Positions 6,067 through 54,349 of a DNA stretch of 64,000 nt are shown here, in pieces. Source of the DNA: Halothiobacillus neapolitanus c2 (GTDB taxonomy: Bacteria; Pseudomonadota; Gammaproteobacteria; Halothiobacillales; Halothiobacillaceae); the NCBI RefSeq assembly GCF_000024765.1, contig NC_013422.1, positions 887,501-951,500 on the forward strand, written 5' to 3'. Positions within the stretch are counted from its first letter, which is position 1. Every line of letters begins with the position of its first letter. The notes beneath the pieces are model-generated. The model saw only the letters and a program-made list of their open reading frames with translations, was not told the DNA's origin and searched no databases. The position numbers and the translations under genes were made by a program.

Positions 6067-6094
6067 GATCGTAAAATGATCAGGCCGTATTGGT

Positions 6095-9365: not shown

Positions 9366-9373
9366 GTTTTCCT

Positions 9374-22052: not shown

Positions 22053-23603
22053 GTGAACATAGATACCCCAACAAGACTTTCACGCCTAGAGTTAGTTGGC
22101 ATTACCAAGGCTTATCCTTCTGTAGTTGCCAATCAGGACGTAAACCTGCTCGTTCGGCCCGGCGAGATTCATGCCGTACTGGGTGAGAACGGCGCGGGCA
22201 AAAGCACCCTGATGAAAATCATCTATGGTGTGACTAAGCCTGATTCCGGTTCCGTGCTCTGGGATAACCGGGAAGTGTCCATCGAGTCGCCAGCCGAGGC
22301 TCGGAAAATCGGAATCGGAATGGTGTTCCAACATTTCTCGCTGTTCGAAACGCTTACTGTTGCCGAAAACATCTCCCTAGCGTTGGATTCGGCCATTGCG
22401 CCCTATGAGCTGGCGCAGCGCATCACGGAGGTGTCCGAGCAGTACGGCTTGCCGATTGATCCGCACCGACTGATCCACAGCATGTCAGTGGGTGAACGTC
22501 AGCGTGTCGAGATTGTACGCTGTCTTCTGAATAATCCCCGCCTGCTGATCATGGATGAGCCAACTTCGGTGTTGACGCCCCAAGCGGTTTTGAAACTGTT
22601 CGAAACACTCCGCCGCCTCGCTTCTGAGGGCTGCAGCATCCTGTATATCAGCCATAAGCTCGACGAAATCCAAACGCTTTGCGACAAGGCGACCATTCTA
22701 CGGGGTGGCCGAGTGACCGGAACTGCGATTCCGAGTGAGGAAACCCGCGAATCGCTGGCGCAGATGATGATCGGTCGCAGTCTACCGGAATGCCAGATGG
22801 CGCCACAGGTCCCTGCAGAAACCCGATTGAGCGTGAAACAACTCAACCTGTCTACAATCGACCCGTTCGGCACCCCATTGAAAAACATCAACCTCGACGT
22901 GCGCAGTGGCGAGATCGTGGGGATTGCCGGCATTTCAGGTAATGGTCAGAAAGAATTGATGGCGGCGCTATCGGGTGAGCAACCCATGCTTAAGGGCGCT
23001 ATGACGACGATTTGTGGTGTGGCAGCCGATCGACTTTCAGCCGGACAGCGGCGCGATTTAGGTTTGCGGTTCGTGCCCGAAGAACGGCTGGGCCGGGGCG
23101 CCGTGCCGTCGATGAGTTTGCGGCTCAATGCCCTGCTGACATCGGGTACTGGCGATGGCCTGGTCAACAACGGCCTGATTTCTTACCCTAAAGTTCAGGC
23201 CTTCGCGCAGGATGTCATCGCCCGGTTCAATGTGAAGTGCGGTGGTGCTGAGGCTCTGGCCAACAGCCTTTCGGGTGGGAATTTGCAAAAATTCATTGTC
23301 GGGCGGGAAATAGCCCAGCGGCCGAAGGTGATGATCGTGGCGCAGCCGACCTGGGGGGTGGACGTGGGGGCAGCACAGATCATCCGGCAGGCGTTGATTG
23401 ATCTGCGCAACGAGGGCGTGGCCGTGCTCGTAGTCTCCGAGGAACTTGAAGAACTGTTCATGATTTGCGACCGCATCGCCGTGATTGCTGATGGTCGGTT
23501 GTCGCCTGCCATTCCCGCCGCCGATACCTCCGTGGAGAAAATCGGCCTCTGGATGAGTGGCGCGTTTGAAGAGGCCAAGGTCGAGGAGGTGCAGCATGCC
23601 TAG
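22053..23603 (+). CDS. Nucleoside-type ABC transporter ATPase (dual-domain)
   Basis: A 516-residue protein with two fused ATPase domains, as in the YufO/NupA and RbsA-like families. Domain 1 has Walker [10 protein letters not shown] (about residue 50), signature SVGERQRVEI and Walker B LLIMDEPTSV. Domain 2 has a degenerate Walker A, GISGNGQKE, and the signature LSGGNLQKFIVGREI, as usual. With the two permease genes that follow it forms a BMP-family importer for nucleosides or purine bases. No binding-protein gene is adjacent; the orphan BMP protein at 53243-54313 could serve it. The GTG start has AAGGAGAG upstream. It probably continues the puu operon after a 65-bp gap. Confidence 0.9.
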   Translation: MNIDTPTRLSRLELVGITKAYPSVVANQDVNLLVRPGEIHAVLGENGAGKSTLMKIIYGVTKPDSGSVLWDNREVSIESPAEARKIGIGMVFQHFSLFETLTVAENISLALDSAIAPYELAQRITEVSEQYGLPIDPHRLIHSMSVGERQRVEIVRCLLNNPRLLIMDEPTSVLTPQAVLKLFETLRRLASEGCSILYISHKLDEIQTLCDKATILRGGRVTGTAIPSEETRESLAQMMIGRSLPECQMAPQVPAETRLSVKQLNLSTIDPFGTPLKNINLDVRSGEIVGIAGISGNGQKELMAALSGEQPMLKGAMTTICGVAADRLSAGQRRDLGLRFVPEERLGRGAVPSMSLRLNALLTSGTGDGLVNNGLISYPKVQAFAQDVIARFNVKCGGAEALANSLSGGNLQKFIVGREIAQRPKVMIVAQPTWGVDVGAAQIIRQALIDLRNEGVAVLVVSEELEELFMICDRIAVIADGRLSPAIPAADTSVEKIGLWMSGAFEEAKVEEVQHA

Positions 23604-24705
23604 ATTGGAACGCAGGCCCCTGCCCTCGCGGGCGATGATGTTCGCTTCGCCCTTGATTGCGGCGCTCTTGATGCTGGTGACAGGCTACATTCTGTTCAGC
23701 ATCATGGGCAAAGATCCTCTGCAGGCCTTCTGGGTATTTTTCATTAAGCCACTGACCACGTCCTACGGTGTCAGTGAGTGGTTGCTGAAATCAACACCGT
23801 TGATTCTCTGCGGGGTTGGGCTAGCCATCGGTTTTCGTGCACGGGTGTTCAATATTGGTGCCGAAGGTCAGTTCACGATGGGGGCCATCGCCGCTGGCGG
23901 CGTCGCACTGTATTTCTACAACACGGAAGCCATCTGGGTGTTGCCGTTGATGATGCTGGCCGGTGTTCTGGGGGGTATGGCCTGGGCCGCGATTCCCGCC
24001 TTTCTGCGCACCCGTTTTAACACCAACGAAATTTTGGTCACCTTGATGCTGGTGTATGTGGCGCAGTTATTCCTTGGTTATCTGGTTCAGGGTCCATGGC
24101 GTGATCCAGAGGGCTTTAACTTCCCGCAATCGAAGATGTTCACTGATGCTGAAACCGTACCGGCGTTGATCGAGGGTTTCCGGGTGAATTGGTCCTTTAT
24201 TGTTGCTTTGGTGCTGGTGGCCGTTTCCTGGTTCTTCTCCTTCAAGATGTTTGCCGGATTCCGAATGGAAGTCAGCGGGCAAGCACCCGATGCGGCGCGT
24301 TACGCCGGGTTCAGCGAGAAGCGTAATGTTTGGTTTGCGCTTCTGATCAGTGGCGGTCTGGCTGGTTTTGCTGGCATGGCCGAGGTCGCAGGGCCGATCG
24401 GCCAGTTACAACCCACCATTTCGCCCGGTTATGGATTCGCCGCAATCATCGTTGCTTATGTAGGTCGCCTACATCCATTGGGCGTCCTTTTGGCGAGCTT
24501 GCTGCTGTCCCTGCTTTACCTTGGTGGCGATACGGCGCAGATGGATTTGAACCTGCCTTCGGCCATTACCGGATTGTTCCAGGGATTATTGCTGTTCTAC
24601 CTGTTGGCCGCCGATATTTTTATTCACTACCGGTTAAAGCCTGATCCGAGTGACGCACGTAAACCTATGGCGCCCCCACCGGAACCCGAAGGAGATATCA
24701 CATGA
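23596..24705 (+). CDS. Nucleoside-type ABC transporter permease 1
   Basis: A 369-residue inner-membrane permease of the YufP/NupB (BPD_transp_2) type with about 9-10 hydrophobic helices. Recognisable motifs are KSTPLILCGVGLAIGFRARV and FNIGAEGQFTMGAIAAGGVA, then TNEILVTLMLVYVAQL. ATG 23596 overlaps the ATPase stop by 8 bp and has GAGGAGG upstream, so I discarded the 13-residue upstream extension. It would form the membrane heterodimer with the next gene. A slightly hydrophilic C-terminal tail (PDPSDARKPMAPPPEPEG) is present. Confidence 0.9.
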   Translation: MPRLERRPLPSRAMMFASPLIAALLMLVTGYILFSIMGKDPLQAFWVFFIKPLTTSYGVSEWLLKSTPLILCGVGLAIGFRARVFNIGAEGQFTMGAIAAGGVALYFYNTEAIWVLPLMMLAGVLGGMAWAAIPAFLRTRFNTNEILVTLMLVYVAQLFLGYLVQGPWRDPEGFNFPQSKMFTDAETVPALIEGFRVNWSFIVALVLVAVSWFFSFKMFAGFRMEVSGQAPDAARYAGFSEKRNVWFALLISGGLAGFAGMAEVAGPIGQLQPTISPGYGFAAIIVAYVGRLHPLGVLLASLLLSLLYLGGDTAQMDLNLPSAITGLFQGLLLFYLLAADIFIHYRLKPDPSDARKPMAPPPEPEGDIT

Positions 24706-25628
24706 GTACCGAGCAAATCATCCTCATTCTTGTCAGTGTCGTGACAGCGGCAACGCCGTTGGCTTTTGCGGCATTTGGTGAGCTGGTCACCGAGCGTGCG
24801 GGCGTGTTGAATCTTGGAGTCGAGGGCATGATGCTCCTCGGTGCGGTGATCGGATTCGCGGTAGCAAAGGATTCCGGTAGCTTGGCGTTCGGATTTTTCT
24901 GCGGCATGCTGGGCGGTATGGCGATGGCCTTGATCTTCGCCGTGCTCACTCAGCATCTACAAACTAATCAGGTAGCGACGGGCCTAGCGTTGACTCTGTT
25001 TGGTGCGGGCTTAAGTGCCTTCATTGGCAAAGCGTATGTGGGCATGTCGATCACTGGCTTGACGCCGGTCACGATTCCCTATCTAAGTGAGATCCCCGTG
25101 CTGGGCCCTCTACTGTTCCACTATGACCTTGCGGTTTATGGCTCGTTCGTCTTGTTGTTCGCCTTGATCTGGTTCTTCAAGTCGTCGCGATGGGGATTGA
25201 TCGTCCGTGCCGTCGGTGAATCACCGGTTTCCGCTCATGCCATCGGTTATCCCGTGATCCGTATTCGTTATTTCGCGATTCTGTTCGGCGGCGCGATGAG
25301 CGGTATTGCCGGGGCGTATCTTTCGCTTGCCGTGACCCCGATGTGGGTGGAAGGCATGACGGCAGGGCGGGGCTGGATCGCGCTAGCACTGGTGGTTTTT
25401 GCCACCTGGAAACCGATGCGGGTGATGGTGGGCGCTTACCTGTTCGGAGCCGTGACGGTGATGCAATTTTACGGTCAGGGCATGGGCATCCATGTGCCGT
25501 CGCAGATTCTTGCCATGCTGCCGTATATCGTGACCATCGTGGTGCTGGTCCTGATTAGCCGTAATCCGAAAACTATTTTGCTCAACCAGCCGATGTCGCT
25601 GGGTGTGAGCTTTTATCCGCGTGCATAA
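24702..25628 (+). CDS. Nucleoside-type ABC transporter permease 2
   Basis: A 308-residue permease of the YufQ/NupC type. The first helix is followed by TPLAFAAFGELVTERAGVLN and LGVEGMMLLGAVIGFAVA, the signature of this subfamily. TNQVATGLALTLFGAGLSAF and GLIVRAVGESPVSAHAIGY are also typical. It overlaps permease 1 by 4 bp (ATGA). The transport substrate is likely a nucleoside or purine/pyrimidine base given the downstream deaminases, but the sequence does not fix it. Confidence 0.9.
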   Translation: MSTEQIILILVSVVTAATPLAFAAFGELVTERAGVLNLGVEGMMLLGAVIGFAVAKDSGSLAFGFFCGMLGGMAMALIFAVLTQHLQTNQVATGLALTLFGAGLSAFIGKAYVGMSITGLTPVTIPYLSEIPVLGPLLFHYDLAVYGSFVLLFALIWFFKSSRWGLIVRAVGESPVSAHAIGYPVIRIRYFAILFGGAMSGIAGAYLSLAVTPMWVEGMTAGRGWIALALVVFATWKPMRVMVGAYLFGAVTVMQFYGQGMGIHVPSQILAMLPYIVTIVVLVLISRNPKTILLNQPMSLGVSFYPRA

Positions 25629-29547: not shown

Positions 29548-29994
29548 TCATACTTCGGCCATTGCAGAGGGGAGAGCGCTGACGTGGGCGGAAACGATGC
29601 GCCAGCCTTCTGCTAAACACACCCAAACCTGAGTTTGGCGCCCAATGGGTTGACCGGGACGGAGGAATTCTGTGGTTGCTATCGCGAAGTTCTGTCCGAA
29701 GGCCGTGATGTGCGTTTCGCGCAGTGTCCGTGCCAGTCCTTGCGTCGGTCGAGCCTGACGAAACGCTCGAATGGCTTCAATACCGTACAGGTTTTCGTTG
29801 GCGCCAAAACGAATCACGCGTGAGTCGGCCCAGAAGAAACGATCCAACGCTTCCAGATCATTTTTCATGAGCGCCTGTTCGTACTGATTGAAAGCTGCGC
29901 GGACCTCTTCAATAATCGTTGACTGGTTGATGTCTCCGCATTGGATATTAGTTGGATGGATTGTTTCGGGTTGAGTAGTCCTGACTTCTGACAT
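29548..29994 (-). CDS. hpxZ: HpxZ/AtzH-like protein (DUF3225, SnoaL-like fold)
   Basis: A 148-residue protein with an NTF2-like fold: FNQYEQALMKNDLEALDRFF, WADSRVIRFGANENLYGIEA, and ITAFGQNFAIATTEF. HpxZ/AtzH proteins accompany AtzE-type amidases in oxalurate and s-triazine operons; the AtzH of cyanuric-acid degraders acts on carboxybiuret-type intermediates. The gene is the last of the leftward operon, with one base between the amidase stop and its start. The first 25 or so residues are not conserved in the family. Its specific reaction here is inferred from context. Confidence 0.8.
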   Translation of the reverse strand: MSEVRTTQPETIHPTNIQCGDINQSTIIEEVRAAFNQYEQALMKNDLEALDRFFWADSRVIRFGANENLYGIEAIRAFRQARPTQGLARTLRETHITAFGQNFAIATTEFLRPGQPIGRQTQVWVCLAEGWRIVSAHVSALPSAMAEV

Positions 29995-29995
29995 A

Positions 29996-31405
29996 TCAAC
30001 CCCGCGGTGTTCTGCTACTGGCTAGGCCGGTCTGTTCCAGCACCCGCGCCACGTGCAGGCATAAATCCTCCCGCCACGGCGGCGCGATAATTTGCAAACC
30101 CATGGGCAGACCACCCTCGGGCCAGAGCGGCGCGATGGCAACCGGCAAACCGATAAAGGAAATGGGCTGGGTCAGCAAGCCCATGTTGGGTCGAGTGGCG
30201 AATTCTCGATTGCCGAGTGTGAAGCTGGGCTGTCCAAGCAAGGGCGCGGTGATGGGCGTGGCGGGGGCGATCAGCACGTCAACATCACGGAACAGATGCA
30301 TCACTCGCTCCAGATACCAGCGCCGATAACGCAATGCCTGTTGATACCAAGCAGCCGGTATCAGCGAACCGGCGATCAGTCGATCCCGCGATAGCGGTTC
30401 GAATAGATCGATCTGCGTGCGCAGGCGATCCTGATACAGGGCGCCGCTTTCCGATGCGGTGATCAGGTACGCCGCGGACCGAGCCGCTGCGACACCGGGC
30501 AATTCGATTTCGCGTGAAGCGCCCAGTACCCGTGCAGCGGTCTGGCTTGCCCAAAGGGCTTGCGGGCCGGCATGCTCATCGAAATAGCCGGTCAGTCGAG
30601 CGATGCGCAGGCCGTCGATGTCTTGATTGAGTCCGCGTCGGGTGGGTTCGATGGGACGCAGGGCACAGGCAGGATCGAGCGGATCGGAGCCTTGCAGGGC
30701 ATCGTATGCCAGGGCGAGATCTTCCGTCGTGGTCGCAAGTGGTCCGAGGTGATCCAGACTGGAAACGAACATCTGGGTACCGGTTCGAGACAAGCGCCCG
30801 TAGGTGGGTTTGAGGCCGAACACCCCGCAAAGCGACGAGGGAACACGAATGGAACCGTTGGTGTCGCTGGCCAGCCCGATCGGCACCAGTCCTGCCGCCA
30901 CCGCCGCCCCGGTCCCACCGGAGGAACCACCCGCCGAACGTGTCGTGTTGCGCGGATTATGAGTGGCGCCGTAATGGCTGTTTTCGGTGGTAAATCCGTA
31001 GGCGTAGGCGTCCATGTTCAGGGTGCCTGCCAAAAGACCACCTGCCCGGTTGAGTTTGTTGACCAGATCCGCGTCCCGGCTTGCTGGTGGACACTGCTCG
31101 TACAGTTTCGCGCCGGCGAGCGTGGTGATGCCCTCGACATCGAACAGATTCTTGACGGCATAGGGCACGGCAGCCAGCGGCCCAAGCGGCTGGTTCTGCC
31201 GCCTGGCGCTGTCTACCAGTTCTGCTTCCCTACGCATCCGCGGTGCCGTGATTTCCGTGAAGGCATTCAGCGTCGAGTTCACCATTTCGATCCGTGCTAG
31301 GGTCGCTTCGGCGATTTCAACGGCCGAGCAGTCGCCCCGGGTAAAAGCATCGACGCATTCGGTTGCCGTGAATGGAAAGCTGGTGTTCATTGAGAGCTGA
31401 CTCAT
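29996..31405 (-). CDS. hpxY: AtzE/HpxY-family amidase
   Basis: A 469-residue amidase-signature enzyme. The Ser-cisSer-Lys triad is Lys85 (VPYAVKNLFDV), Ser161 (SAGGSSGGTG) and Ser185 (SDTNGSIRVPSS). Partnered with a small AtzG-like protein encoded upstream (4-bp overlap) and an AtzH-like protein downstream, it matches the AtzE-AtzG-AtzH / HpxYXZ set. In Klebsiella-type urate pathways HpxY is thought to hydrolyse oxalurate; AtzE hydrolyses 1-carboxybiuret. With PucG and an HpxW-like enzyme in this window, oxalurate is the likelier substrate. The start at 31405 is favoured by ATGA coupling; ATG 31390 is possible. Confidence 0.83.
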   Translation of the reverse strand: MSQLSMNTSFPFTATECVDAFTRGDCSAVEIAEATLARIEMVNSTLNAFTEITAPRMRREAELVDSARRQNQPLGPLAAVPYAVKNLFDVEGITTLAGAKLYEQCPPASRDADLVNKLNRAGGLLAGTLNMDAYAYGFTTENSHYGATHNPRNTTRSAGGSSGGTGAAVAAGLVPIGLASDTNGSIRVPSSLCGVFGLKPTYGRLSRTGTQMFVSSLDHLGPLATTTEDLALAYDALQGSDPLDPACALRPIEPTRRGLNQDIDGLRIARLTGYFDEHAGPQALWASQTAARVLGASREIELPGVAAARSAAYLITASESGALYQDRLRTQIDLFEPLSRDRLIAGSLIPAAWYQQALRYRRWYLERVMHLFRDVDVLIAPATPITAPLLGQPSFTLGNREFATRPNMGLLTQPISFIGLPVAIAPLWPEGGLPMGLQIIAPPWREDLCLHVARVLEQTGLASSRTPRG

Positions 31406-31596
31406 AGGCGATAGAGGTTGGACGGTTCTTCGTCGATCGATATCGGTTGACTGTCCAGCGTGGCTTTCATCTGGCGGAGCAGGGTGAACTGCTTGACGAC
31501 ATCGAGGCGAAGCTCCGGTGTCAGCGTTATCTGATTCAGTTCGAGTGCCGCATCGACATAGGATTCGATTGCGAGGGTTTTAGGATCAGGATTCAT
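31402..31596 (-). CDS. hpxX: AtzG/HpxX-like small amidase partner (DUF4089)
   Basis: A 64-residue helical protein: [20 protein letters not shown], then [19 protein letters not shown]. AtzG-like proteins bind AtzE-type amidases as a second subunit, in a way comparable to GatC with GatA. It overlaps the amidase gene by 4 bp and the preceding hydrolase by 11 bp, so its synthesis is strongly coupled. Length and position agree with the family. Confidence 0.85.
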
Positions 31597-32296
31597 CGGC
31601 GGATACCTCCTGTGATTCCGTTTGCGGCGTAGCGTGGGTGAGCGCTTCGAGCGTAGCTGTCCAGCCGACGATGCCGCCCTGTGCGCGAATCATCGCCAGC
31701 GTGGCTTGTTTGAATTCGGGGAAATAGCTTTCGGTTGCTTCTTCGACCAGCAGGCATTCATAACCGCGGTCGTTGGCTTCGCGCATGGTGGTTTGCACGC
31801 AGACCTCGGTCGTGACGCCGCCGAACAGCAGGTGAGTGATACCGTGCGCCTTGAGAATCTCGCCCAGTTCGGTGGCATAGAACGCGCCCTTGCCCGGTTT
31901 GGTGATAATAACTTCGCCGGGCAGAGGAGTAAGTTCCTCGACGAAATCCGCACCGAATTCGCCGTCGATCAGAATGCGTCCCATCGAACCCGGATCGCCG
32001 ATCCGCAGCGTCGGGTCGCCACGCAGCCGCTTCGCCAGCGGGCAATCTGACAAGTCTGCCGCATGGGCTTCCTTGGTATGGACCACGAGCATGTTTCGCG
32101 CACGGCACCAGTCGAGCAGTTCAAGAGCCGCGGTGACGGCGGGCTTTAGACGCGCCACATCGTTGCCAAGCGTGTCGCCGAAACCGCCGGGCAGAATGAA
32201 ATCCCGCTGCATGTCGATCATGATGACGGCGGTACGGGCGGGAGGAAAACGCCAGGCAAAAGGTTGTGCATCCACGCGCAACGTATCCATGTTCAT
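31586..32296 (-). CDS. Isochorismatase-family cysteine hydrolase (ureido amidohydrolase type)
   Basis: A 236-residue hydrolase with the Asp-Lys-Cys triad: Asp28 ([11 protein letters not shown]), Lys133 or Lys136 ([14 protein letters not shown]) and Cys166 ([12 protein letters not shown]). The layout, [20 protein letters not shown] at the start, is close to biuret/ureidoacrylate amidohydrolases. A second, different paralogue (33879-34562) is in the same operon, with an ABC ATPase gene between. Plausible substrates are N-carbamoyl compounds such as biuret, allophanate-like amides or oxamate; the sequence cannot decide. It overlaps neighbours on both sides. Confidence 0.8.
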
Positions 32297-33882
32297 GCGA
32301 CCTCCCGTTCATCGTGGTGTCCACCGGCCATATGGTGGCCGATGACGCGCAGGTCGGCGGTTTCGGCAGACGTTTCGTAGACCAGTTTGCCCTCGCTCAT
32401 CACCGTGATGCGATCGGCGAGCTCCAGCAATTCGTCCAGATCTTCACTGACAAGCAAAATGGCCGTGCCATTGGCGCGTGCGGCCAGAAGCCGGGCGTGG
32501 GTTTCGGCCACGGCATTGAAGTCTAGGCCAAATACCGGGTTGGCCACGATGAGCAGATTCACCGGGTTCGATAGTTCGCGTGCCAGCACCGCCCGCTGGA
32601 CGTTGCCGCCCGAGAGGGTTCTGATCTTGGCATTGATGCCGTCCGTCTTGACGCCGAAGGCCTCGACATAGCGTTGTGCCTGCTGTTTCAGCGCCTTGCG
32701 GTTGAGCAGGAAGCCGAAGCGAGCGAGCGGTGGTTGGTCGTAATTGCGCAGCGCCATGTTTTCGGCCACCGAAAGCCCGGCGACACAGCCGTTGCGCAGG
32801 GGTTCTTCGGGCAGGGAAAAGACCTTGTGTCGTGCGATTTCGGCGCGCTTACCCGAATACGGTTCACCATCGACCAGCACCTTGCCTGCGGATTTCTTTC
32901 GTTGTCCGATCAGTACTTCGACCAGTTCTTTCTGACCGTTACCAGAAACGCCCGCAATCCCCAGGATTTCCCCCGGACGTACGCTGAGGTTAATGCCGTC
33001 CAGTACAAGTTGATCGTAATCGCCGTGGGCGCACAGGTTTTCGATCACCAGTTTGGGTTTGTATTCCGGGATGACAGACGCAAGCGTGCGCATGGTCGTC
33101 TGCTTGCCCAGTGCACCGCCAACCATCATTTCGGCCATCTGTTCGACACTCAGATCTTTTACCGCACCACTGCCTGCAAACTTGCCGCGGCGCAACACGG
33201 TGACGTCATCGGCGTAGGCCGTTACTTCCCGGAACTTGTGTGTGATGATGAGTACGGTCAGAGCCTTGCTCGACGCCAGGTTCTTGACGAAACCGAGCAC
33301 TTCGTCGGCCTCGTCTGGGGTGAGTACCGATGTGGGCTCGTCGAGAATCAGGAAACGGCGCTTGAGGTAGAGCTGCTTGATGATCTCGACTTTTTGCTTT
33401 TCGCCCGCAGCCAAGCTGTTGGCGTATTTATCGAGGGGTATCCGGAACGGCAGGGTGTCGATGAATGCGGTCAGCTCCTCGCGCTCCTTCTTCCAGTCGA
33501 TGAGTGCGGGTAGGGCACCTTTAGCCATCACCAGATTTTCAGCCACGGTCATTCCGGGTACGAGGGTGAAGTGCTGGTAGACCATGCCGATGCCGAGTTG
33601 CGCCGCTTCCCGTGGCGAAGGGATTTTGACTTCACGTTGATTGATCAGTACATCGCCCGTATCGGGTGTGTAAAAACCGACTAGACATTTGACCAGGGTG
33701 GATTTTCCGGCGCCGTTTTCACCCAGTAACGCGTGGAATCCACCGGCGGGAATGCGCAGGGACACATTGTCCAGCGCGACAACATCGCCAAAGCGTTTGC
33801 CCAGGCCGATGATCTCCAATTCCAGACCATGCGAGCTAACCGGTGATCTATCAAGATTTAATGCTTTGGGCGATGTGTTCAT
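32293..33882 (-). CDS. BMP-family ABC transporter ATPase (dual-domain)
   Basis: A 529-residue dual ATPase. Domain 1 carries Walker [10 protein letters not shown], signature [12 protein letters not shown] and Walker [11 protein letters not shown]. Domain 2 carries GVSGNGQKE and the signature [19 protein letters not shown] 33882 overlaps the upstream amidohydrolase stop (ATGA) and fits the family N-terminus after a short lead; the 45-residue extension upstream lies inside the other gene and was discarded. It energises the permease pair at 34596-36613 with the binding protein at 36703-37821. Being sandwiched between two hydrolase genes suggests that uptake and hydrolysis of one substrate are coupled. 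Confidence 0.92.
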
Positions 33883-34562
33883 GAGGCTAACCCAAGGATG
33901 ATGTCCGCACTGTTCGCGACGGCGCCGAATACGCCGCCCTGCATTTCCACCATGTGCAGGGCAGCGTGATGATTGGAGATATCCGTGGCAGCGCAGGCGT
34001 CTTCGACCAGCAGGCATTCAAAGCCGCGATCGTTGGCTTCGCGCAGGGTGGTGTGTACGCAGACATCGGTTGTGATGCCCGTCAGAATGAGATTGCGAAT
34101 GCCGCAGGTGTGCAAGATCAACTCCAGATCAGTGGCATAGAATGAGCCTTTGCCGGGTTTGTCGATGATGACTTCACCCGGCAGGGGCGCGAGTTCGGGG
34201 ATGATTTCCCAGCCGGGTTGACCACGAACTAGCACCTGACCGCAAGGACCGCAGTCACCGATGCCTGCGCCGATTTGCCGAGAACGCCAGCGCTTGTTCG
34301 CGGGTAGATCGGAAAGATCGGGCCGATGGCCTTCCCGCGTGTGGATGACCTTCAATCCCTTTTCTCGCGCCATATTGAGCAATTGGGCTATGGCGGGAAT
34401 AGGCGCACGGGTCAATTCGATGTCGTAGCCCATGCTGTTGACATAGCCGCCCGGGCCGCAAAAGTCGATTTGCATGTCGATGATCACGAGCGCCGTGTTT
34501 TTTGGCGTGAGCTGGCCATCGAACGGCCAGAGATAAGGGTGGGCGCGAATGAATTTACTCAT
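33879..34562 (-). CDS. Biuret-amidohydrolase-like cysteine hydrolase (BiuH/RutB type)
   Basis: A 227-residue isochorismatase-superfamily enzyme with Asp29 ([11 protein letters not shown]), Lys135 ([17 protein letters not shown]) and Cys168 ([12 protein letters not shown]). Segments [20 protein letters not shown] and [20 protein letters not shown] strongly recall biuret amidohydrolases (BiuH), which split biuret to allophanate. AtzE/AtzG/AtzH-like genes in the same operon reinforce a ureido-compound role. It lies 33 bp after a permease gene and overlaps the ATPase gene by 4 bp. Ureidoacrylate or another N-carbamoyl substrate remains possible. Confidence 0.8.
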
Positions 34563-34595
34563 GTGAAGGCTTCCTGTTATTCATGTACTTCATGG

Positions 34596-35528
34596 TTAAC
34601 GCACCAGGCTCAGCTCACCCGGCGCACCGGAAATTTTCCTTCCGGGAGATGTCGTCAGTACCAGAATCCCGAGCGTCAGTACGTAGGGCAGGGCGTTGAG
34701 CAGGTAGAATCCGCTGGTCAAGCCCATCGCCTGGAGCGCGGGTCCGAGTGCGCCCGCCGCGCCAAAAAGCAATGAAGCCCACAAGCAGCGCAAAGGCTCC
34801 CAGCGCGCGAAGATCACGAGCGCCACCGCCATGATGCCTTGGCCGGAAGACAGCCCTTCACTCCAGCTTCCCGGGTAGTACAGCGACAGGAACGACCCGC
34901 CGACTCCGGCTAGAAAACCGCCGAATACGGTCGCCAAAATACGGGTCGGAATCACACGAAAGCCCATGGCGCGCGCGGCATCTTCGCTATCGCCGACAAT
35001 GCGAATCTGCAATCCCCAACGGGTACGCAGGAAGGCATAGTGCAGCAGGATCGCAAGTACAATGCCGACCAGAAACAAAGGGTTGATCTGCAGCGCGGAT
35101 TGAATCTGCGCGGAATCGCTCCAAAATCCGAGCGGTATGGACGGCAGGGTAGGCGCCTGTGGTTGAATCAACGGTTTGCCGAGGAAAAAGGCCAACCCGG
35201 TGCCGAGCAGCATAAAGCTAATACCGATGGCGATGTCGTTGACGCGTTTGAGGCTGCACAGGATTCCGTGGAGCAGGCCCATGATCGCGCCGACAAATCC
35301 CGCCGCAAGTACACCAAGCCACGCCGATCCGGTATAGAGCGATGCGCCGTACCCGGCCATCGCCCCCATGATCAGCACGCCTTCCAAGCCCAGATTGATG
35401 CGACCGGATTTTTCCGTCACGCATTCCCCGAGACTCACCAACAAGAATGGCGTACTTGCTCGAATGGCGCCTGCGATTACCGCGATGGGCACACCCCAGC
35501 AACCCAGACTTTCTGTGACTTCAGTCAT
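34596..35528 (-). CDS. BMP-family ABC transporter permease 2
   Basis: A 310-residue permease: GAIRASTPFLLVSLGECVTE, KSGRINLGLEGVLIMGAMAG, SLKRVNDIAIGISFMLLGTG and RIVGDSEDAARAMGFRVIP are signatures of the YufQ/NupC-like subunit. About nine hydrophobic segments. It overlaps the other permease by 4 bp. The TonB-independent uptake path would be porin (tsx-like, 37861-38805), then binding protein, then this channel. Confidence 0.9.
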   Translation of the reverse strand: MTEVTESLGCWGVPIAVIAGAIRASTPFLLVSLGECVTEKSGRINLGLEGVLIMGAMAGYGASLYTGSAWLGVLAAGFVGAIMGLLHGILCSLKRVNDIAIGISFMLLGTGLAFFLGKPLIQPQAPTLPSIPLGFWSDSAQIQSALQINPLFLVGIVLAILLHYAFLRTRWGLQIRIVGDSEDAARAMGFRVIPTRILATVFGGFLAGVGGSFLSLYYPGSWSEGLSSGQGIMAVALVIFARWEPLRCLWASLLFGAAGALGPALQAMGLTSGFYLLNALPYVLTLGILVLTTSPGRKISGAPGELSLVR

Positions 35529-36613
35529 GATCCTGTTCCCTTGATGACCGATTTGGCACTCTCTGGTTTGAAAAAACGTAAGCGCCCAAGGAAGGTGTCG
35601 CTGGCAAGAATGACAACGAACAAAATTCCCTGAAATACGATGACCGTTGCATCTGGCATATCCAGGCGTCTTTGGAGCATCCCACCCGCCGCGTCGATGC
35701 CGCCGAACAGAATGGCGACAGGGATGACTGCGAACGGGTTCTGCCGAGCAATGAAAGCCACCAGAATGCCAGTGAAGCCATACCCGGCGACCACGGCGGA
35801 ATTAGCGCTTCCCTGCACGGCCGCCACTTCGATTGCACCGGAAAGTCCTGCCGCCGCACCACCTACGGCGGCAGCGCCGACCACCCAGTAATTGACATTC
35901 AACCCCGCCATTTGAGCGGCACGGGGATTGCCACCGACCGCGCGCAGCGCGAGCCCGACGGTGGTGTACTTAAGGACAAGCCAGATAACCAGAGCGAACA
36001 CAATGCCGACAATCAATCCGTAATGGACATCCAAGCCCGGGATATTGCCGATCATGTGCGCATCCCCGATGGGTTGTGTCGCCGGTTTGTTGGTGCTGGC
36101 CGGATCCTTCAACGGCCCTTGGATGCAATAGTTAAGCAGGGCGATCCCGATGTAAGAAAGCAGCAGGCTGCTGATGGTTTCGTTGACACCTCGATAGTTG
36201 CGCAGCCAGCCGGACAGCGCGAACCAAAGTGCGCCCGTCAGTGCACCAGCGGTGAGCATGCCGATTTGCGCCGTCAGCGCCGAACTGTCGTGAAGCGCGT
36301 AGCCAACCACACCAGCCAACAGTGCACCTAGTGCCAGTGCACCTTCACCGCCGATCATGATCATGCCGGCCTGTGCCGGTATGGCAACGGCCAGACCGGT
36401 AAGAATCAGGGGAGATGCCAGAACAAGGGTGTTCTGCAAAGAGAAGCTCGAACCGAAACCACCCTGGTACAACGTCAGGAAGACCTCCGGCGGTGATTGT
36501 CCGACTAGCGCGACAAAGCCTGCAAATAGCAACATGGCGACTAGTATGGCGCCCGTCGGCACCAGCAGCGTCTCCGCGACGGGCAGCAAAAACCTCTTTG
36601 TGCCTGAGAACAT
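35525..36613 (-). CDS. BMP-family ABC transporter permease 1
   Basis: A 362-residue permease with LQNTLVLASPLILTGLAVAI, AGMIMIGGEGALALGALLAG and YRGVNETISSLLLSYIGIAL, typical of the YufP/NupB-like partner. About ten hydrophobic helices. It is separated from the binding-protein gene by 89 bp that include a small stem-loop, consistent with lower expression of permease than of binding protein. It starts at ATG 36613; no strong alternative was seen. Confidence 0.9.
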   Translation of the reverse strand: MFSGTKRFLLPVAETLLVPTGAILVAMLLFAGFVALVGQSPPEVFLTLYQGGFGSSFSLQNTLVLASPLILTGLAVAIPAQAGMIMIGGEGALALGALLAGVVGYALHDSSALTAQIGMLTAGALTGALWFALSGWLRNYRGVNETISSLLLSYIGIALLNYCIQGPLKDPASTNKPATQPIGDAHMIGNIPGLDVHYGLIVGIVFALVIWLVLKYTTVGLALRAVGGNPRAAQMAGLNVNYWVVGAAAVGGAAAGLSGAIEVAAVQGSANSAVVAGYGFTGILVAFIARQNPFAVIPVAILFGGIDAAGGMLQRRLDMPDATVIVFQGILFVVILASDTFLGRLRFFKPESAKSVIKGTGS

Positions 36614-36674
36614 GATGAATGGCTCTCCTGATTGAATAACTTGAGGTTGATAAATCTGGTGGCCGGACTAGGTT

Positions 36675-36697
36675 GCCCGTGCAAGCAACCGACGGGC
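36675..36697 (-). terminator. Possible attenuating stem-loop between binding protein and permease genes
   Basis: GCCCGT (36675-36680) pairs with ACGGGC (36692-36697) around an 11-nt loop, a few bases after the binding-protein stop. No T-run follows on the transcribed strand, so it would be an mRNA-stabilising or partial-attenuation hairpin rather than a full terminator. Confidence 0.3.
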
Positions 36698-36702
36698 GTC
36701 TG

Positions 36703-37821
36703 TCAGATCTGGCCGACGACACCTGCCACAAGGTAATTCATCCCCTCTAAAGCGACATCACGCTGGCCTTGGCTTACCCCCTCTGGAATCACGGTTTTTC
36801 CGTTGTTGTCCTTGAGCGGCCCCTTGAAGATCACATAGTCCCCTGTCAGCATCTCGGCCTTGATGGCATCGGCGGTTGTCTTCGCCTTTTCGGGCACGGC
36901 TTTGCCGTAGGGGCTCATCTTGACGAACCCTTCCTTTAGACCACCTCGCAGGAAATTGAGCATCGGCTTGCCTTCGTGGGCGGCATCTACAAGCATCTTG
37001 TAGGGTGTCGCCCAGACCCACTCGGCGCCGGTGAGGTATCCGTTTGGTGCCAATGAAGATTGATCGACGTGGTAGCCGGTGCAGTACACACCACGCTTTT
37101 CGGCGGTTTCGATGATGACTTTCGGGCTATCAACGTGACAGGTCACGACGTCGCAGCCCTGATCGATCAGGCTGTTGGCGCTTTCCGCTTCCTTGACCGG
37201 CATGGACCAGTCACCCGTGAAGATCACATGGGTCGTGAACGAGGGATCGACCGACTGAGCGCCCATCGTGAACGAGTTGATATTGCGCAATACCTGCGGG
37301 ATCGGCTTGGCCGCAATGAAGCCGAGTTTTTTACTTTTGCTGACGTGCGCAGCGACCACACCGCTCAGGTATTCGCATTCATCAATGTAACCGAAGAAAC
37401 TGCCGGTATTCTTAGGGTCTTTGGGGGTCCATAGGCCGCCACAATGGGCAAATCGAATTTTGGGATATTGCGCTCCGAGTTTGAGGACATAGGGATCGAA
37501 ATAGCCAAATGAAGTGGCAAAAACCAGTTTGGCATTATCCTGCTCGATCATTGCTTGCATGGACTTTTGCACAGCGATGGTCTCGGGGACGCGCTCTTCT
37601 TCCACTACTTTGATGTAGGGTAATTTCTTTATCTCGGCGACGGCTTCGGCGTGCGACTGGTTGTAACCGTAGTCGTCACGTGAACCGACATAGACGGCAC
37701 CGATGGTGAATTTTTCCGAGGCGGATGCCGTGCGAATACCTAATGAAATCAAGGTCAGGGCAGCGGCCGAGCCACCCAGTTGCGCCAGAGCCTTGCGGCG
37801 AGATTTATCGATTGTGCTCAT
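36703..37821 (-). CDS. BMP-family ABC transporter substrate-binding protein
   Basis: A 372-residue periplasmic BmpA/PnrA-type protein. The leader KSRRKALAQLGGSAAALTLI ending at ASA has a twin arginine, so Tat export is possible. Mature motifs are TIGAVYVGSRDDYGYNQSHA, KLVFATSFGYFDPYVLKLGA and LRNINSFTMGAQSVDP, with CDVVTCHVDSPKVI. Relatives bind nucleosides or purine bases. It heads the transporter-hydrolase operon, 40 bp downstream of a tsx-like porin gene. A paralogue is at 53243-54313. Confidence 0.92.
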   Translation of the reverse strand: MSTIDKSRRKALAQLGGSAAALTLISLGIRTASASEKFTIGAVYVGSRDDYGYNQSHAEAVAEIKKLPYIKVVEEERVPETIAVQKSMQAMIEQDNAKLVFATSFGYFDPYVLKLGAQYPKIRFAHCGGLWTPKDPKNTGSFFGYIDECEYLSGVVAAHVSKSKKLGFIAAKPIPQVLRNINSFTMGAQSVDPSFTTHVIFTGDWSMPVKEAESANSLIDQGCDVVTCHVDSPKVIIETAEKRGVYCTGYHVDQSSLAPNGYLTGAEWVWATPYKMLVDAAHEGKPMLNFLRGGLKEGFVKMSPYGKAVPEKAKTTADAIKAEMLTGDYVIFKGPLKDNNGKTVIPEGVSQGQRDVALEGMNYLVAGVVGQI

Positions 37822-37858
37822 GTTTGTTTTCTCTCTGAAATGTGTGAATGACGAGGGG

Positions 37859-38613
37859 TTTTAGAAGTGGTATTCGACGCGGACCATGGGTGTTTTGGCG
37901 AAAGCGCCGGAGCCTGCGGGTCCGTTGGCATCGTTACCGAATTTATTCTTCCAGTACTGATATTCGATGCCGGCCTTGAAGGTGCCTGGTTTATCCCAGA
38001 ACAGCTTGCCGACATCGGCCATGATTTGGGCATCGATATTGATTTCGGTTTTGGTTTGAGCGCCGAATTCATCCTTCCCTTTAGGCGCAATCAGGTTGGC
38101 ATATCCCTCGAAGGAGAAAGCGGAGTTTCCGATAGGGATACCCCAAGCGGCAGTCAGCATGGGGTGAACCTTATAGGAATAGCGAGAGACGCAGGTATTG
38201 GTGTAATCGTTGCAGGGTGCATTGCTTTCCCATAGGGCCAACAGGCTCACATTGAGGAAGCCTGGCACATCGAACATCACGGTTGGGCCGAGGACAAGCA
38301 TTCGTTTTTTCGAGTTATAGCCGGCATCTGTTTTCGTATTGAAATCGAAACCGCTGGTAATACCGAAGCCTTTAGCCACACCAACCTTCAGATCCTTGTT
38401 CATGATCTTGCCGATATCGAGCGTATTACGGTAGACCGCATAGACCTCCTGAGCGCCTGACTTACCATCGGGGCCAGAAGGATCCTTGCTATCGGAGAAC
38501 AGCGCATCGATGCTGAAGAAGTTGGTACCGTACTTGAAGCCACTGACGTGGCTGAAGTTCAGGATATTTTTAGAGATATCATTGCCTTCATAGGGTTCGG
38601 CGAACTTGGTGCC
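37859..38613. repeat. 755-bp identical duplication, copy A (partner 54350-55104)
   Basis: Line-by-line comparison shows no difference between 37859-38613 and 54350-55104. The identity starts 2 bp after the stop codon and continues to a silent A/G difference at 38614/55105; a few more silent changes follow, and the signal-peptide regions are unrelated. This points to recent duplication or gene conversion limited to the mature-protein coding region. Confidence 0.95.
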
Positions 38614-38805
38614 ATAGCGCCAGCTCAGTGAAGTATCACTCCAGTCGGCAGCCTGGGCTGCTGTGCCTAGGGATATGCTCAGGACGAGCCCGAGAACAAA
38701 TTTCTGGGGAATGGTCGGAGCAGCAGCCAATGGGTAATTCCCAACTGAGCGACGAGTAGGTGAAAGAGTTGATGTGGTCAGCAGTCGCGTGCGGTGAGTT
38801 GGCAT
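37861..38805 (-). CDS. Tsx-like outer-membrane nucleoside channel, copy 1
   Basis: A 314-residue beta-barrel precursor. The mature part starts after AAQA with ADWSDTSLSWRYGTKFAEP and ends VRVEYHF with a terminal Phe, the usual outer-membrane insertion signal. The leader is unusually long (about 52 residues, starting MPTHRTRLLTTSTLSP) and differs completely from copy 2, although the mature coding sequence is almost identical. AAGGA precedes ATG 38805. The Tsx/nucleoside-specific channel assignment fits the adjacent BMP binding-protein gene. An internal later start is possible, given the odd leader. Confidence 0.85.
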   Translation of the reverse strand: MPTHRTRLLTTSTLSPTRRSVGNYPLAAAPTIPQKFVLGLVLSISLGTAAQAADWSDTSLSWRYGTKFAEPYEGNDISKNILNFSHVSGFKYGTNFFSIDALFSDSKDPSGPDGKSGAQEVYAVYRNTLDIGKIMNKDLKVGVAKGFGITSGFDFNTKTDAGYNSKKRMLVLGPTVMFDVPGFLNVSLLALWESNAPCNDYTNTCVSRYSYKVHPMLTAAWGIPIGNSAFSFEGYANLIAPKGKDEFGAQTKTEINIDAQIMADVGKLFWDKPGTFKAGIEYQYWKNKFGNDANGPAGSGAFAKTPMVRVEYHF

Positions 38806-39185
38806 CGTTGATTTCCTTGTCTTTTGATAGAGGGGGAATACAGTGATTTAGAATCTGGCTGTTGTATGCAACGATGCATGCACTGAGCGTGCCATAATGG
38901 AGTTTATTTTCTTATCTCTTTGTAATTAAATGAAAAAATCTATTTATGCGCCAATTTCATATCCTGTTTTTTGCCACGGCCCGTACAAAAACTCAGCCTT
39001 TTGGTGCGAAAGTAGGGAAATTCTGTACCGTGTTGGTGCGTTTTTTCGCCTAAGCTACCAGCCGTTTCCGTTGCACGCCTGATCCAACTTTCACGATGGA
39101 ATAGTCTCTTGTGACCTTCTATGCGTAGACTGGGCTGAAATTACCTATACTCGGACCAGAAATTTTTGAATGGCGACCACTCCGT
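38806..39185. other. Divergent regulatory interval tsx-like / second GntR gene
   Basis: A 380-bp AT-rich gap between divergent starts. No credible gene. A quasi-palindrome GTTGTATGCAAC (38861-38872), next to ATGCATGCA, lies about 60 bp before the tsx-like start and may be an operator variant. The promoters of the tsx-BMP-hydrolase operon and of the GntR gene should be here. Confidence 0.5.
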
Positions 39186-39902
39186 ATGAAGCAAACAGCT
39201 GAACAGACCACGGTAAAACCTGTCGCGACGAAATATGTGTACGACGCGCTGAAGGAAAAAATCCTCAGTTTTGAGATCTATCCGGGTAGCCGGGTGACCG
39301 AATCTGAACTGGCAGATTTGTTCATGGTGAGTCGCACGCCCGTTCGCGAAGCGCTGCTTCGGCTGGAAAACGAAGGCTTCCTGACTATCCGGCCGAAACA
39401 AGGATGTTTCATCAAGCCGATCAATATCGAGGAACTGGGCGAGTACTACGGCGTGCGCACGGCGCTTGAAGTGGCGGCGGTCGAGGGGGCTTGTCATTAC
39501 ATGCCGGAAAGCGAGTTGCAGCATTTGCTGCATCTGTGGTCGCCCGACCAGGCATTGGTGGAGCACAGTGCCGATCAGATGGAAGATAAGGACGAGTCGT
39601 TTCATATTGCCTTGGCTCTCGGTAGTGGAAATTCGACGCTTGTCCGATACCTTCAAGACGTCAACGATCACATTCGCATCATCCGCCGCGTGGACTTTCA
39701 AGACGAAGAGCGGATCAAGCGAACCTATGCCGAACACCACGCGATCATCGAAGCAATTCTCGGCCGCGAGGTCGATAAGGCCCGCAACCTGATGAAGCGT
39801 CACATCCAGCGAAGCCAGGACTTCGCCAAAACCCTCACCCTGACGCAATTGGCTAAGAAGAAGGCGGGTGTCAGCCGTTTCGAACAGGTGAAAGCGTTGT
39901 GA
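39186..39902 (+). CDS. GntR family (FCD-type) transcriptional regulator 2
   Basis: A 238-residue regulator: winged helix at about residues 15-80 (KYVYDALKEKILSFEIYPGS, then VTESELADLFMVSRTPVREA), FCD effector domain at about 90-220 with AEHHAIIEAILGREVDKA and MKRHIQRS at the usual metal-ligand positions. It diverges from the tsx-BMP-hydrolase operon and is its likely controller. It converges with the dioxygenase gene with no bases between the stop codons, so the transcripts must overlap. Confidence 0.92.
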   Translation: MKQTAEQTTVKPVATKYVYDALKEKILSFEIYPGSRVTESELADLFMVSRTPVREALLRLENEGFLTIRPKQGCFIKPINIEELGEYYGVRTALEVAAVEGACHYMPESELQHLLHLWSPDQALVEHSADQMEDKDESFHIALALGSGNSTLVRYLQDVNDHIRIIRRVDFQDEERIKRTYAEHHAIIEAILGREVDKARNLMKRHIQRSQDFAKTLTLTQLAKKKAGVSRFEQVKAL

Positions 39903-40844
39903 TTATTTCTGTCGGTACGCGTACGTCTGATTAAAGCGGGACGTGATCCAGTCATCCGAAAAGATGGGTTCATACCGGCACGGCGTTTTGGGCGTCACGC
40001 ACGAGTCGAAGCATGCCACCCGGGTTTTCGTATTCGGTTCGAGAAAGAATGGGATCGAATAGCGATCGACGCCCAGTGGCGGCACGACCCGGTGCGGCGT
40101 CGACTGAAACACATCGTTGCTCCAGCGCTGCATGAGATCGCCAATATTTACCACCAGCATGTCCGGTTCGTAAGGAACGCGAATCCAGTCCTGCCCTCGG
40201 GGTTTGACCTCAAGCCCACCCACGGCATCCTGCGCCAGCAGGGTGAGGCAACCATAGTCCGTGTGAACTCCGGCACTAATTTGTCCTGCGTCTGTTACCG
40301 GCGGATAGTGAATCATGCGCAGTACGCTGGTCTGGTCGTCGAACAGCGGATCGAAGTAATCAATCGGTAGTTCCAGCGATACCGCCATCAGTGCCAGTAG
40401 ATTCAGACCCGTTTCGCTCAACCGCTGGTAATACCGTTCAACAGTCTCCTTGAAACCCTCAAATTGAGGGTACTGGTTTGGGCCGTAGAAAAGATCGCCC
40501 GCCCGCACCCCGGGATGCGTCGGGCCCAGGTCGCGGGACATGTCGAAAGTTTCTTTGAAATCCGCTGGGGTTTCGGGCGACAACTGCTCCGCGCCTACCT
40601 TTCCGTAACCCCGGTGATGCGACGAGTTTTCGATGCTGATGCGCATCTTCTCTTCAAGCGGCTGGGCGAAGAACCGGTGGGCCAGCGTGAATATGTCCAC
40701 GAACTCTTCTGTGGACAGATTGGTGTTCTTCACGGTGAAAAACCCGATGTCACAGCAGGCGCGATAGAGTTTTTCGGCTTCTACGCGCACGGCTGGGGTG
40801 ATCGTTCTGGCGTGAGCAACAGCGGGGTCGATTAACGGCAGCAT
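39903..40844 (-). CDS. 2-oxoglutarate/Fe(II) dioxygenase, isopenicillin-N-synthase-like
   Basis: A 313-residue DIOX_N/2OG-FeII oxygenase. The iron ligands are in HTDYGCLTLLAQD (His and Asp) and STPHRVVPP (His); the 2-oxoglutarate Arg is in DRYSIPFF. ATG 40844 has GGGAG upstream and matches the usual beginning LPLIDPAV, so I discarded a 26-residue extension. It ends the uraH-xdhABC-guaD operon. A similar oxygenase gene (PA0147) lies near purine genes in Pseudomonas. The substrate is unknown; hydroxylation of a purine or pyrimidine base or N-methyl purine is a fair guess. Confidence 0.85.
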   Translation of the reverse strand: MLPLIDPAVAHARTITPAVRVEAEKLYRACCDIGFFTVKNTNLSTEEFVDIFTLAHRFFAQPLEEKMRISIENSSHHRGYGKVGAEQLSPETPADFKETFDMSRDLGPTHPGVRAGDLFYGPNQYPQFEGFKETVERYYQRLSETGLNLLALMAVSLELPIDYFDPLFDDQTSVLRMIHYPPVTDAGQISAGVHTDYGCLTLLAQDAVGGLEVKPRGQDWIRVPYEPDMLVVNIGDLMQRWSNDVFQSTPHRVVPPLGVDRYSIPFFLEPNTKTRVACFDSCVTPKTPCRYEPIFSDDWITSRFNQTYAYRQK

Positions 40845-40888
40845 GGCGGGTTCTCCCAAGTCAGTTGGGCTGGTCGGGCCGGTTCGAA

Positions 40889-41380
40889 TCAATAGGCGAT
40901 CTTGTCGGGTTTCGCACGCCATTCGTTGAACGGCAGGATTGCTTCTTTCTCCAGCAGGCGAATGGTCGGGATCTGACGGTCCGGGATGTCCTTGGCGATT
41001 TCTTCATACAGAAAGGCGTCGTCGAACCCGATGTCGGCGGCGTCCTGACGCGAATTAGCGTAATAGATCCGATCCAGCCGCGCCCAGTAGATGGCGCTCA
41101 GGCACATGGGGCAGGGCTCACAGCTGGTATAAATCTCGCATCCGGACAGATCAAATGTGTTCAGCACCTGACAGGCAGCGCGAATGGCGCTGACTTCAGC
41201 GTGCGCGGTCGGGTCGTTAGCAGATGTGACCTGATTGAATCCAGTAGCGATGACTTCCCCATTACGGGAGATCACGGCGCCGAACGGGCCACCGAAACCG
41301 GCAATCATTTTTTCTCTTGAAAACTCAATGGCTTGACGCATGATTTGCTTTTCTTGTTCGTGCACAACGTGGTCACACAT
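40889..41380 (-). CDS. guaD: Guanine deaminase (cytidine-deaminase fold)
   Basis: A 163-residue zinc deaminase that would convert guanine to xanthine for the dehydrogenase encoded upstream. Zinc motif: HAEVSAIRAA with His and Glu, and CEPCPMCLSAIYW with the Cys pair. AIEFSREKMIAGFGGPFGAV and the C-terminal ILPFNEWRAKPDKIAY resemble Bacillus-type GuaD, including the aromatic C-terminal end that closes the partner's active site. It overlaps xdhC by 8 bp and lies 44 bp before the dioxygenase gene. Confidence 0.9.
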   Translation of the reverse strand: MCDHVVHEQEKQIMRQAIEFSREKMIAGFGGPFGAVISRNGEVIATGFNQVTSANDPTAHAEVSAIRAACQVLNTFDLSGCEIYTSCEPCPMCLSAIYWARLDRIYYANSRQDAADIGFDDAFLYEEIAKDIPDRQIPTIRLLEKEAILPFNEWRAKPDKIAY

Positions 41381-46882: not shown

Positions 46883-46894
46883 ATTGTGTACAAT
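46883..46894. promoter_or_regulatory. Candidate operator ATTGTGTACAAT upstream of the amidase gene
   Basis: Perfect 5-bp arms, 40 bp before the amidase start on the other side of the same 296-bp divergent region as the 46670 site. The adjacent TGTGCACA (46897-46904) is itself palindromic. Two sites in one divergent region suggest both operons respond to the same regulator. Confidence 0.6.
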
Positions 46895-46934
46895 TGTGTG
46901 CACATTTTGTTTTATCATATTCCTGAGAGTGGTG

Positions 46935-54313: not shown

Positions 54314-54349
54314 GGTTAGTTTCCTCTGCAAAAGTTGATCGGATCGTTA

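Follow-up and report, generated by a model that had tools for sequence, protein, structure and literature searches.

A probable triuret and biuret operon with an AtzG-AtzE-AtzH module in the purine-degradation island of Halothiobacillus neapolitanus c2

Triuret and biuret are breakdown products of uric acid and urea. We analyzed an operon of ten genes that probably serves to scavenge nitrogen from both, located in a 64,000-nucleotide stretch of the Halothiobacillus neapolitanus c2 genome (NC_013422.1, positions 887,501 to 951,500; hereafter the window, with its first letter as position 1). Among described systems, the trtA/trtB/biuH/atzF genes of Herbaspirillum (PMC7948467) and the biuH-trtA-trtB-atzF cluster of nitrifiers, found with bmpA-nupABC (PMC12625717), have in common with this locus TrtA, BiuH, a BMP-type ABC transporter and an AtzF encoded in the genome; the published figure of the nitrifier cluster also includes an annotated gntR gene. 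Compared with these clusters, the window has AtzGEH where they have a distinct decarboxylase step; its operon also includes a porin gene, and AtzF lies outside it. Here and throughout, what we say of published systems applies to the consulted parts of the cited papers.

Other described clusters supply the remaining ingredients. Plasmid pADP-1 of Pseudomonas sp. ADP (atzRSTUVW and atzDGEHF; PMC6834077, PMC6219798; survey locus L084) shares an AtzS-like porin, a BMP protein, two permeases, an ATPase and AtzG-E-H, whereas the operon studied here lacks AtzD and AtzF, adds TrtA and BiuH, is a single operon instead of two divergent ones, and is accompanied by a GntR rather than a LysR regulator. The hpxWXYZ genes found with hpxJK-type genes in Serratia, Rouxiella and Pantoea (PMC3560190; L163, L165, L168-L170) have the X-Y-Z module in common with the window, whose AtzE appears as sister to HpxY in our tree, and the likeness extends to a ureidoglycine-glyoxylate aminotransferase (UGAT) and an allantoate amidohydrolase in the same island; however, hpxW is not adjacent in the window, and the module lies behind trtA, with transporter and ureidases in one operon. 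The atzG-atzE-atzH genes of Comamonadaceae and other Burkholderiales occur with the same ingredients, namely ABC transporters, amidases and allophanate hydrolase, and loci L018, L019, L022 and L036 look alike; TrtA and BiuH are not named as partners in the passages of PMC6219798 on these clusters. A first-pass annotation, made from the sequence alone, had taken the combination to be undescribed. That view has to be tempered by the close precedents (PMC6834077, PMC12625717, PMC6219798), although the exact combination is not reported in the parts of them consulted. In the part of the open literature that our search covered, no single operon combining trtA, biuH, a BMP transporter and atzGEH is described; a prior description is possible in Aukema 2020, the AtzEG paper or Robinson 2018, which were outside that search. 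We regard the parts as known and the operon as new in being a variant, with an unusual middle step (AtzGEH), of the described triuret clusters.

The ten genes occupy 38805 to 29548 of the minus strand, in the order tsx, BMP, two permeases, BiuH, ATPase, TrtA, AtzG, AtzE and AtzH (Table 1). Both this order and the divergent GntR gene had been recognized in the first-pass annotation and agree with the coordinates; its statement that most junctions overlap by 4–11 bp holds by a narrow majority, five of the nine overlapping (by 4, 4, 4, 11 and 4 bp, the longest where the atzG start runs into the trtA end) and four having gaps of 1, 33, 39 and 89 bp. The ATPase start is the ATG at 33882, which overlaps the biuH stop by 4 bp; the mechanical open reading frame, from 34017, begins 45 codons early. 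Matches above the Pfam cut-offs were obtained for Bmp, BPD_transp_2 (twice), Isochorismatase (twice), ABC_tran, Amidase and AtzH-like, and the AtzG-like protein, which falls just under its cut-off, is 61% identical to its homolog in L004.

The identity of the two hydrolases points to the substrates. BiuH exceeds the NF050097 cut-off of 370 bits and has 6azo as its best solved relative; the structures 6azo and 6XIX are BiuH and the triuret hydrolase TrtA, respectively, and we compared the 13 active-site and specificity positions named for them (PMC7948467). At these positions BiuH carries the string DFYYEKKSDCTQV, the commonest one, present in 75 of the 79 BiuH-labelled proteins of our survey; the other four differ at position 205. 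The survey covered loci around 80 BiuH relatives, the best of 568 found in named genomes, and so favors close relatives of BiuH; its gene labels are best BLAST hits to our own reference set, not curated. The second hydrolase scores only 239.6 bits with NF050097, below the cut-off, and matches 6xix best among solved structures (280 bits; the best BiuH reaches 193). Because of this match, and because all 13 published residues agree with 6XIX, this protein is predicted to be a TrtA rather than another ureidase of general type. Its residue string recurs in 32 of 49 TrtA-labelled survey proteins, while 16 differ only at position 134 by M and one by S.

Carboxybiuret, the product of TrtA, breaks down to biuret, half of it within about 20 minutes, and AtzEG deaminates it to dicarboxyurea (PMC7948467), which AtzH probably decarboxylates to allophanate (PMC6219798). 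Since the TrtA product is a known AtzEG substrate, the operon would provide for both compounds, biuret through BiuH and carboxybiuret through AtzGEH. The genes follow the AtzG-AtzE-AtzH order of atzDGEHF, and AtzE passes the NF006631 cut-off of 461 bits. Its best solved relative, at 518 bits, is 6c62, whose chain is named 'Biuret hydrolase' and which in our reading is AtzE. We assign a probability of about 70% to the reading that the operon serves nitrogen scavenging of triuret and biuret, with AtzGE acting on carboxybiuret alone or besides oxalurate; this figure includes a shared role, so it overlaps with the confidence given to that alternative below. Substrates, cargo and regulation are inferred here from sequence.

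In the proposed pathway, the Tsx/AtzS-like porin would pass a small planar ureide across the outer membrane, and the BMP protein with its ABC transporter would import it. TrtA would then remove one terminal ammonia from triuret to give carboxybiuret, AtzGE would remove a second to give 1,3-dicarboxyurea, and AtzH would decarboxylate this to allophanate. BiuH would reach allophanate from biuret, either imported or arising from spontaneous decarboxylation of carboxybiuret. Breakdown of allophanate would be completed by AtzF (781 bits, cut-off 511), encoded elsewhere in the genome, where its gene adjoins that of a urea carboxylase (1825 bits) and a urea-binding protein is encoded nearby. The earlier proposal of a single pathway importing and fully hydrolyzing a carbamoyl compound is therefore sustained by gene content and recurrence, with two amendments: the compound is better named as triuret and biuret, since the second hydrolase is of the TrtA type, and full hydrolysis is not accomplished within the operon, as AtzF is needed from elsewhere.

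The operon is a recurring but patchy arrangement across Proteobacteria, and a random one-off gene order, which the first-pass annotation had named as speaking against a common pathway, is excluded by the survey. Gene order was scored in 78 of the 80 loci (L066 and L082, with no BiuH reading frame under the label rule, were left out). The run BMP-permA-permB-BiuH-ATPase-TrtA is present in 30 of the 78, or 33 with AtzD allowed inside, and is directly followed by AtzE-AtzH in four (L004, L006, L058 from Hoeflea alexandrii, L073), or six with AtzD allowed (L010 and L021 in addition); the L004 genome, G057, appears identical to G008 and was counted once. Sulfuriferula (L006) has the same order from BMP to AtzH, without tsx and with AtzF elsewhere. 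Like the window genome, those of L006 and of L004, which belongs to the same genus as the window, have one GatA, one AtzE in the operon and one AtzF elsewhere.

AtzH proteins fall into two classes by their pocket, which consists of Tyr22, Arg46, Arg63, Arg66, Arg73, Phe94, Arg96, Gln106 and Gln108 (PMC6219798). The sole AtzH-like gene of the operon encodes the complete pocket (YRRRRFRQQ), identical to that of AtzH and unlike the lone homologs. Arg66 and Arg96 are kept in all 38 AtzE-linked AtzH proteins, the window and Pseudomonas ADP included ('AtzE-linked' meaning AtzE within 3.5 kb), whereas lone AtzH homologs near TrtA, such as that of Stutzerimonas L031, keep Arg66 in 0 of 14 and Arg96 in 3 of 14. 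Both classes occur together in three Alloalcanivorax genomes, where in each case the TrtA-linked copy is without Arg66 and the copy linked to an amidase and HpxW has the full pocket. A fourth case, L214 from a Herbaspirillum, keeps Arg66 with Lys at 96 and His at 108. Five overlapping loci (L172, L182, L183, L184, L186) were dropped from the AtzE and AtzH comparison sets. We infer that the Arg66/Arg96 split may separate a dicarboxylate pocket, for 1,3-dicarboxyurea or N-carboxyoxamate, from a monocarboxylate pocket for carboxybiuret, and the lone homolog may be TrtB, the carboxybiuret decarboxylase.

Several observations weigh against the proposed reading. In the 41 TrtA loci that have wide flanks, AtzE and AtzH are both present in 12, AtzH without AtzE in 13 and neither in 16, and AtzE never occurs without AtzH; because AtzE is present in only 12 of the 41, AtzGEH is dispensable for triuret use generally. 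TrtA and AtzE occur together in only two of ten genomes of the window's genus. (Of 369 genomes drawn from the class, with at most four candidates scored per genome, six have an AtzE-family match at E 1e-100.) The 14 lone AtzH homologs are not independent, representing 13 distinct sequences with one to three origins on the tree, and Arg66 is kept in L045, L077 and L160, where AtzE is not within 3.5 kb and TrtA not within 9 kb; in L077 and L160 the locus has AtzE at a greater distance, and for L045 it is on the adjoining stretch of that contig (L178). In the AtzE tree, from which GatA_own, L159, L160 and L181 were left out, the window protein groups with those of L004 and L006 as sister to enterobacterial HpxY (support 97/95 without long-branch rows, 96/77 with them). 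Finally, the island that holds the operon encodes UGAT (659 bits to 3nnk) and a relative of HpxW (12730-14328). UGAT makes oxalurate, so AtzGEH may serve oxalurate.

The AtzE tree and the content of the island favor an alternative in which AtzGEH is HpxXYZ, converts UGAT-derived oxalurate to oxamate, and sits in the triuret operon for co-regulation only. The window holds UGAT, allantoate amidohydrolase and the HpxW relative together, the operon copy is the only AtzE-family gene found in the genome, and AtzH of the operon scores higher with 2rcd (147 bits), in our reading an HpxZ from the Erwinia group, than with AtzH itself (104 bits). Approximately unbiased (AU) tests of the AtzE sequences reject a grouping of the window protein with the Rubrivivax-type clade, alone (p 0.005) or together with the ADP clade (p 0.025); grouping with the ADP clade alone is only disfavored (p 0.18), and that this clade, with Pseudomonas ADP AtzE, is not rejected tells against the alternative. 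At eleven HPX-diagnostic AtzE columns, compared without L159, L160 and GatA, the counts of HPX-like and other residues are 7/3 for the window, 4/6 for L004 and 3/7 for L006; the distant HPX row L160 has the HPX residue at just one of the eleven.

Gene content elsewhere makes the oxalurate-only alternative unlikely. In Sulfuriferula, which has the TrtA-AtzGEH order, the best UGAT match is not close (231 bits, 38%), and HpxW gives no match at E 1e-70. The HpxW relative of the window is part of a TRAP operon 15 kb from the XYZ module; the same-genus genomes G005 and G007 keep this TRAP operon without any AtzE. UGAT matches at E 1e-60 occur in nine of 49 locus genomes searched and are close (>650 bits) in five (G057, G078, G093, G104, G105); HpxW alone says little, because its relatives are common in locus genomes without a close UGAT (e.g., G083, G091). 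A second amidase, upstream of UGAT (Table 1), is a candidate oxalurate or oxamate amidase; among three genomes compared, it is present in both that have UGAT and absent in Sulfuriferula. Three Alloalcanivorax genomes with UGAT but no AtzE match at E 1e-90 carry relatives of this amidase (41–42% identical) in an operon together with HpxW and AtzH. The proposition that AtzE is necessarily an oxalurate enzyme given UGAT and HpxW was rejected, as Sulfuriferula has the gene order without either and the three Alloalcanivorax have both without AtzE at that cut-off. In these Alloalcanivorax loci (L207, L208, L209), HpxW, TRAP DctM, the amidase relative, which is of the PRK08310 type, AtzH and GntR form one operon, possibly an alternative oxalurate module with its own transporter.

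A bifunctional AtzGEH, acting as one terminal-ureide amidase and carbamate decarboxylase for both the triuret and the oxalurate branches, is possible, if doubtful. Carboxybiuret and oxalurate differ by one NH, the evidence for either substrate also speaks for such an enzyme, and among proteins with AtzE, 17 of 18 triuret-linked and 5 of 5 HPX-linked ones share the same AtzH pocket string; the separate amidase near UGAT, on the other hand, would be available for oxalurate. For the substrate of AtzGEH we rank carboxybiuret first, the shared role second and oxalurate alone third.

The purine island of the window comprises urate oxidase, a PuuE-like gene of the polysaccharide-deacetylase type, OHCU decarboxylase, 8-oxoguanine deaminase, xanthine-dehydrogenase-type genes, UGAT and allantoate amidohydrolase, as well as a 2-oxoglutarate oxygenase (39903-40922). 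Elsewhere, such an oxygenase adjoins an amidohydrolase labelled 8-oxoguanine deaminase beside TrtA/BiuH in four of the 80 loci (L033, L058, L066, L073; no chance level was computed), and in L058 and L073 the pair immediately precedes the BMP gene in the same orientation. A far-reaching version of the pathway would make triuret a true intermediate of an enzymatic purine route, beyond its chance formation when uric acid is oxidized, with an oxygenase of the island (candidate 39903-40922) forming triuret or a precursor from a purine such as 8-oxoguanine or urate, the operon consuming triuret, and AtzGEH common to the triuret and oxalurate branches; we consider this quite improbable.

Transport genes of this kind might also belong to a nucleoside or purine importer accompanied by unrelated amidases. 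The binding protein is of the BMP family, with 3s99 and AtzT (6pi5) as its closest solved relatives; AtzT, the nearest characterized binding protein, binds guanine, held by Glu165 among others (PMC6834077). In the operon protein (site residues YSFQWHD, a pattern seen in 51 of the 61 BMPs from the operons of other loci) Glu165 is replaced by Gln, and in the other loci by Gln (54/61) or Thr, Ser or Ile (7/61), never being Glu (0/61). In contrast, a second BMP protein in the window (53243-54331), behind tsx2, is 63% identical to AtzT and has Glu165, as have seven of eight AtzT-like BMPs of the survey loci (>150 bits and >80% coverage). Because the operon protein is without Glu165 while the second one has it, a cargo other than guanine is plausible, and an importer of nucleosides is very unlikely. 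ABC genes at 22053-25628 may partner the second BMP protein.

The porin is 62% identical to a pADP-1 protein that we label AtzS and that is annotated as hypothetical in the pADP-1 record. No relevant Pfam match was found for it, and a search of solved structures also failed to recognize it. An AlphaFold model (mean predicted local distance difference test score, pLDDT, 71.5; 12 strands; eight sequences) has Tsx (1tlw) as its best fold match, with a VIA Z of 20.1 against 15.4 for the next, and it is this modeled fold alone that supports the name tsx. The tsx-like genes at 37861-38805 and 54352-55299 are identical in their last 753 bp of DNA, while their signal-peptide regions and the flanks downstream differ; this points to gene conversion or duplication in the recent past.

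The transporter type and the AtzGEH module are those of pADP-1, and AtzD is present in 10 of 78 related loci, which brings up a cyanuric acid operon like atzRSTUVW/atzDGEHF. We give this next to no credence. The annotation of the pADP-1 stretch, which is incomplete, includes no isochorismatase-type gene. Cyanuric acid as the main substrate was rejected, there being no AtzD among the ten genes; a search of the genome itself found no AtzD, though it lacked a positive control.

Expression of the operon is probably sigma-54 dependent, judging from predicted promoter elements. Of 60 related loci, 15 have a sigma-54-like site ahead of the leading gene of the operon, compared with 43 of 3000 random control stretches of the same length; the 15 include close relatives, and three Bradyrhizobium have one common site. 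Across the window such sites number 4 against 2.85 expected, which is not above chance, so only placement and the comparison with other loci are favorable. Elements at 17475-17490, 38879-38894 and 55348-55363 are 49–75 bp upstream of the TRAP-HpxW operon, tsx1 and tsx2, on the right strands. The divergent GntR/FCD protein possibly regulates the operon and would be the likely ligand sensor. A gene 64% identical to it diverges from the operon in L006, and an 88% identical gene is next to guaD/xdh in L185, which is a different contig of a same-genus genome. Inverted repeats upstream of tsx include no convincing GntR operator. Ahead of the purine island, the window also contains type I-C CRISPR (clustered regularly interspaced short palindromic repeats) cas genes at 3722-11635 (Cas1, Cas5 and Cas3 recognized) and an integrase fragment at 12215-12670.

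Table 1. Positions in the window of the operon genes and associated features, with the basis of each assignment.
Feature	Position	Strand	Basis
Tsx/AtzS-type outer-membrane channel (porin)	37861..38805	-	match to pADP-1 protein labelled AtzS; modeled fold
BMP-type solute-binding protein	36703..37821	-	Pfam Bmp, 145 bits
ABC permease A	35525..36613	-	Pfam BPD_transp_2, 115 bits
ABC permease B	34596..35528	-	Pfam BPD_transp_2, 131 bits
Biuret hydrolase BiuH	33879..34562	-	Pfam Isochorismatase; NF050097, 407.5 bits
ABC transporter ATPase, two ABC domains	32293..33882	-	Pfam ABC_tran, two stretches
Triuret hydrolase TrtA (predicted)	31586..32296	-	Pfam Isochorismatase; top solved relative 6xix
AtzG/HpxX-like small subunit	31402..31596	-	Pfam AtzG-like, 23.3 bits (cut-off 24)
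AtzE/HpxY-family amidase	29996..31405	-	Pfam Amidase; NF006631, 674 bits
AtzH/HpxZ-family (DUF3225) protein, probable carbamate decarboxylase	29548..29994	-	NF033625, 170 bits (cut-off 135)
GntR/FCD regulator, divergent	39186..39902	+	GntR and FCD domains
Sigma-54-like -24/-12 element (predicted)	38879..38894	-	TGGCACGCTCAGTGCA, 1 mismatch; 74 bp before tsx
Amidase	46884-48110		NF006169, 426 bits (cut-off 391); upstream of UGAT and allantoate amidohydrolase, same neighborhood in L185

The operon links the recently found triuret breakdown pathway to a purine-degradation island. From the comparison, there seem to be two ways of dealing with carboxybiuret: a lone decarboxylase, or AtzGE with AtzH. 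Arg66 and Arg96 provide a simple sequence rule for separating the two AtzH classes, whose members databases may name HpxZ, as the pADP-1 record does for AtzH itself. If AtzGEH indeed takes both carboxybiuret and oxalurate, one enzyme would be common to two pathways that are annotated separately.

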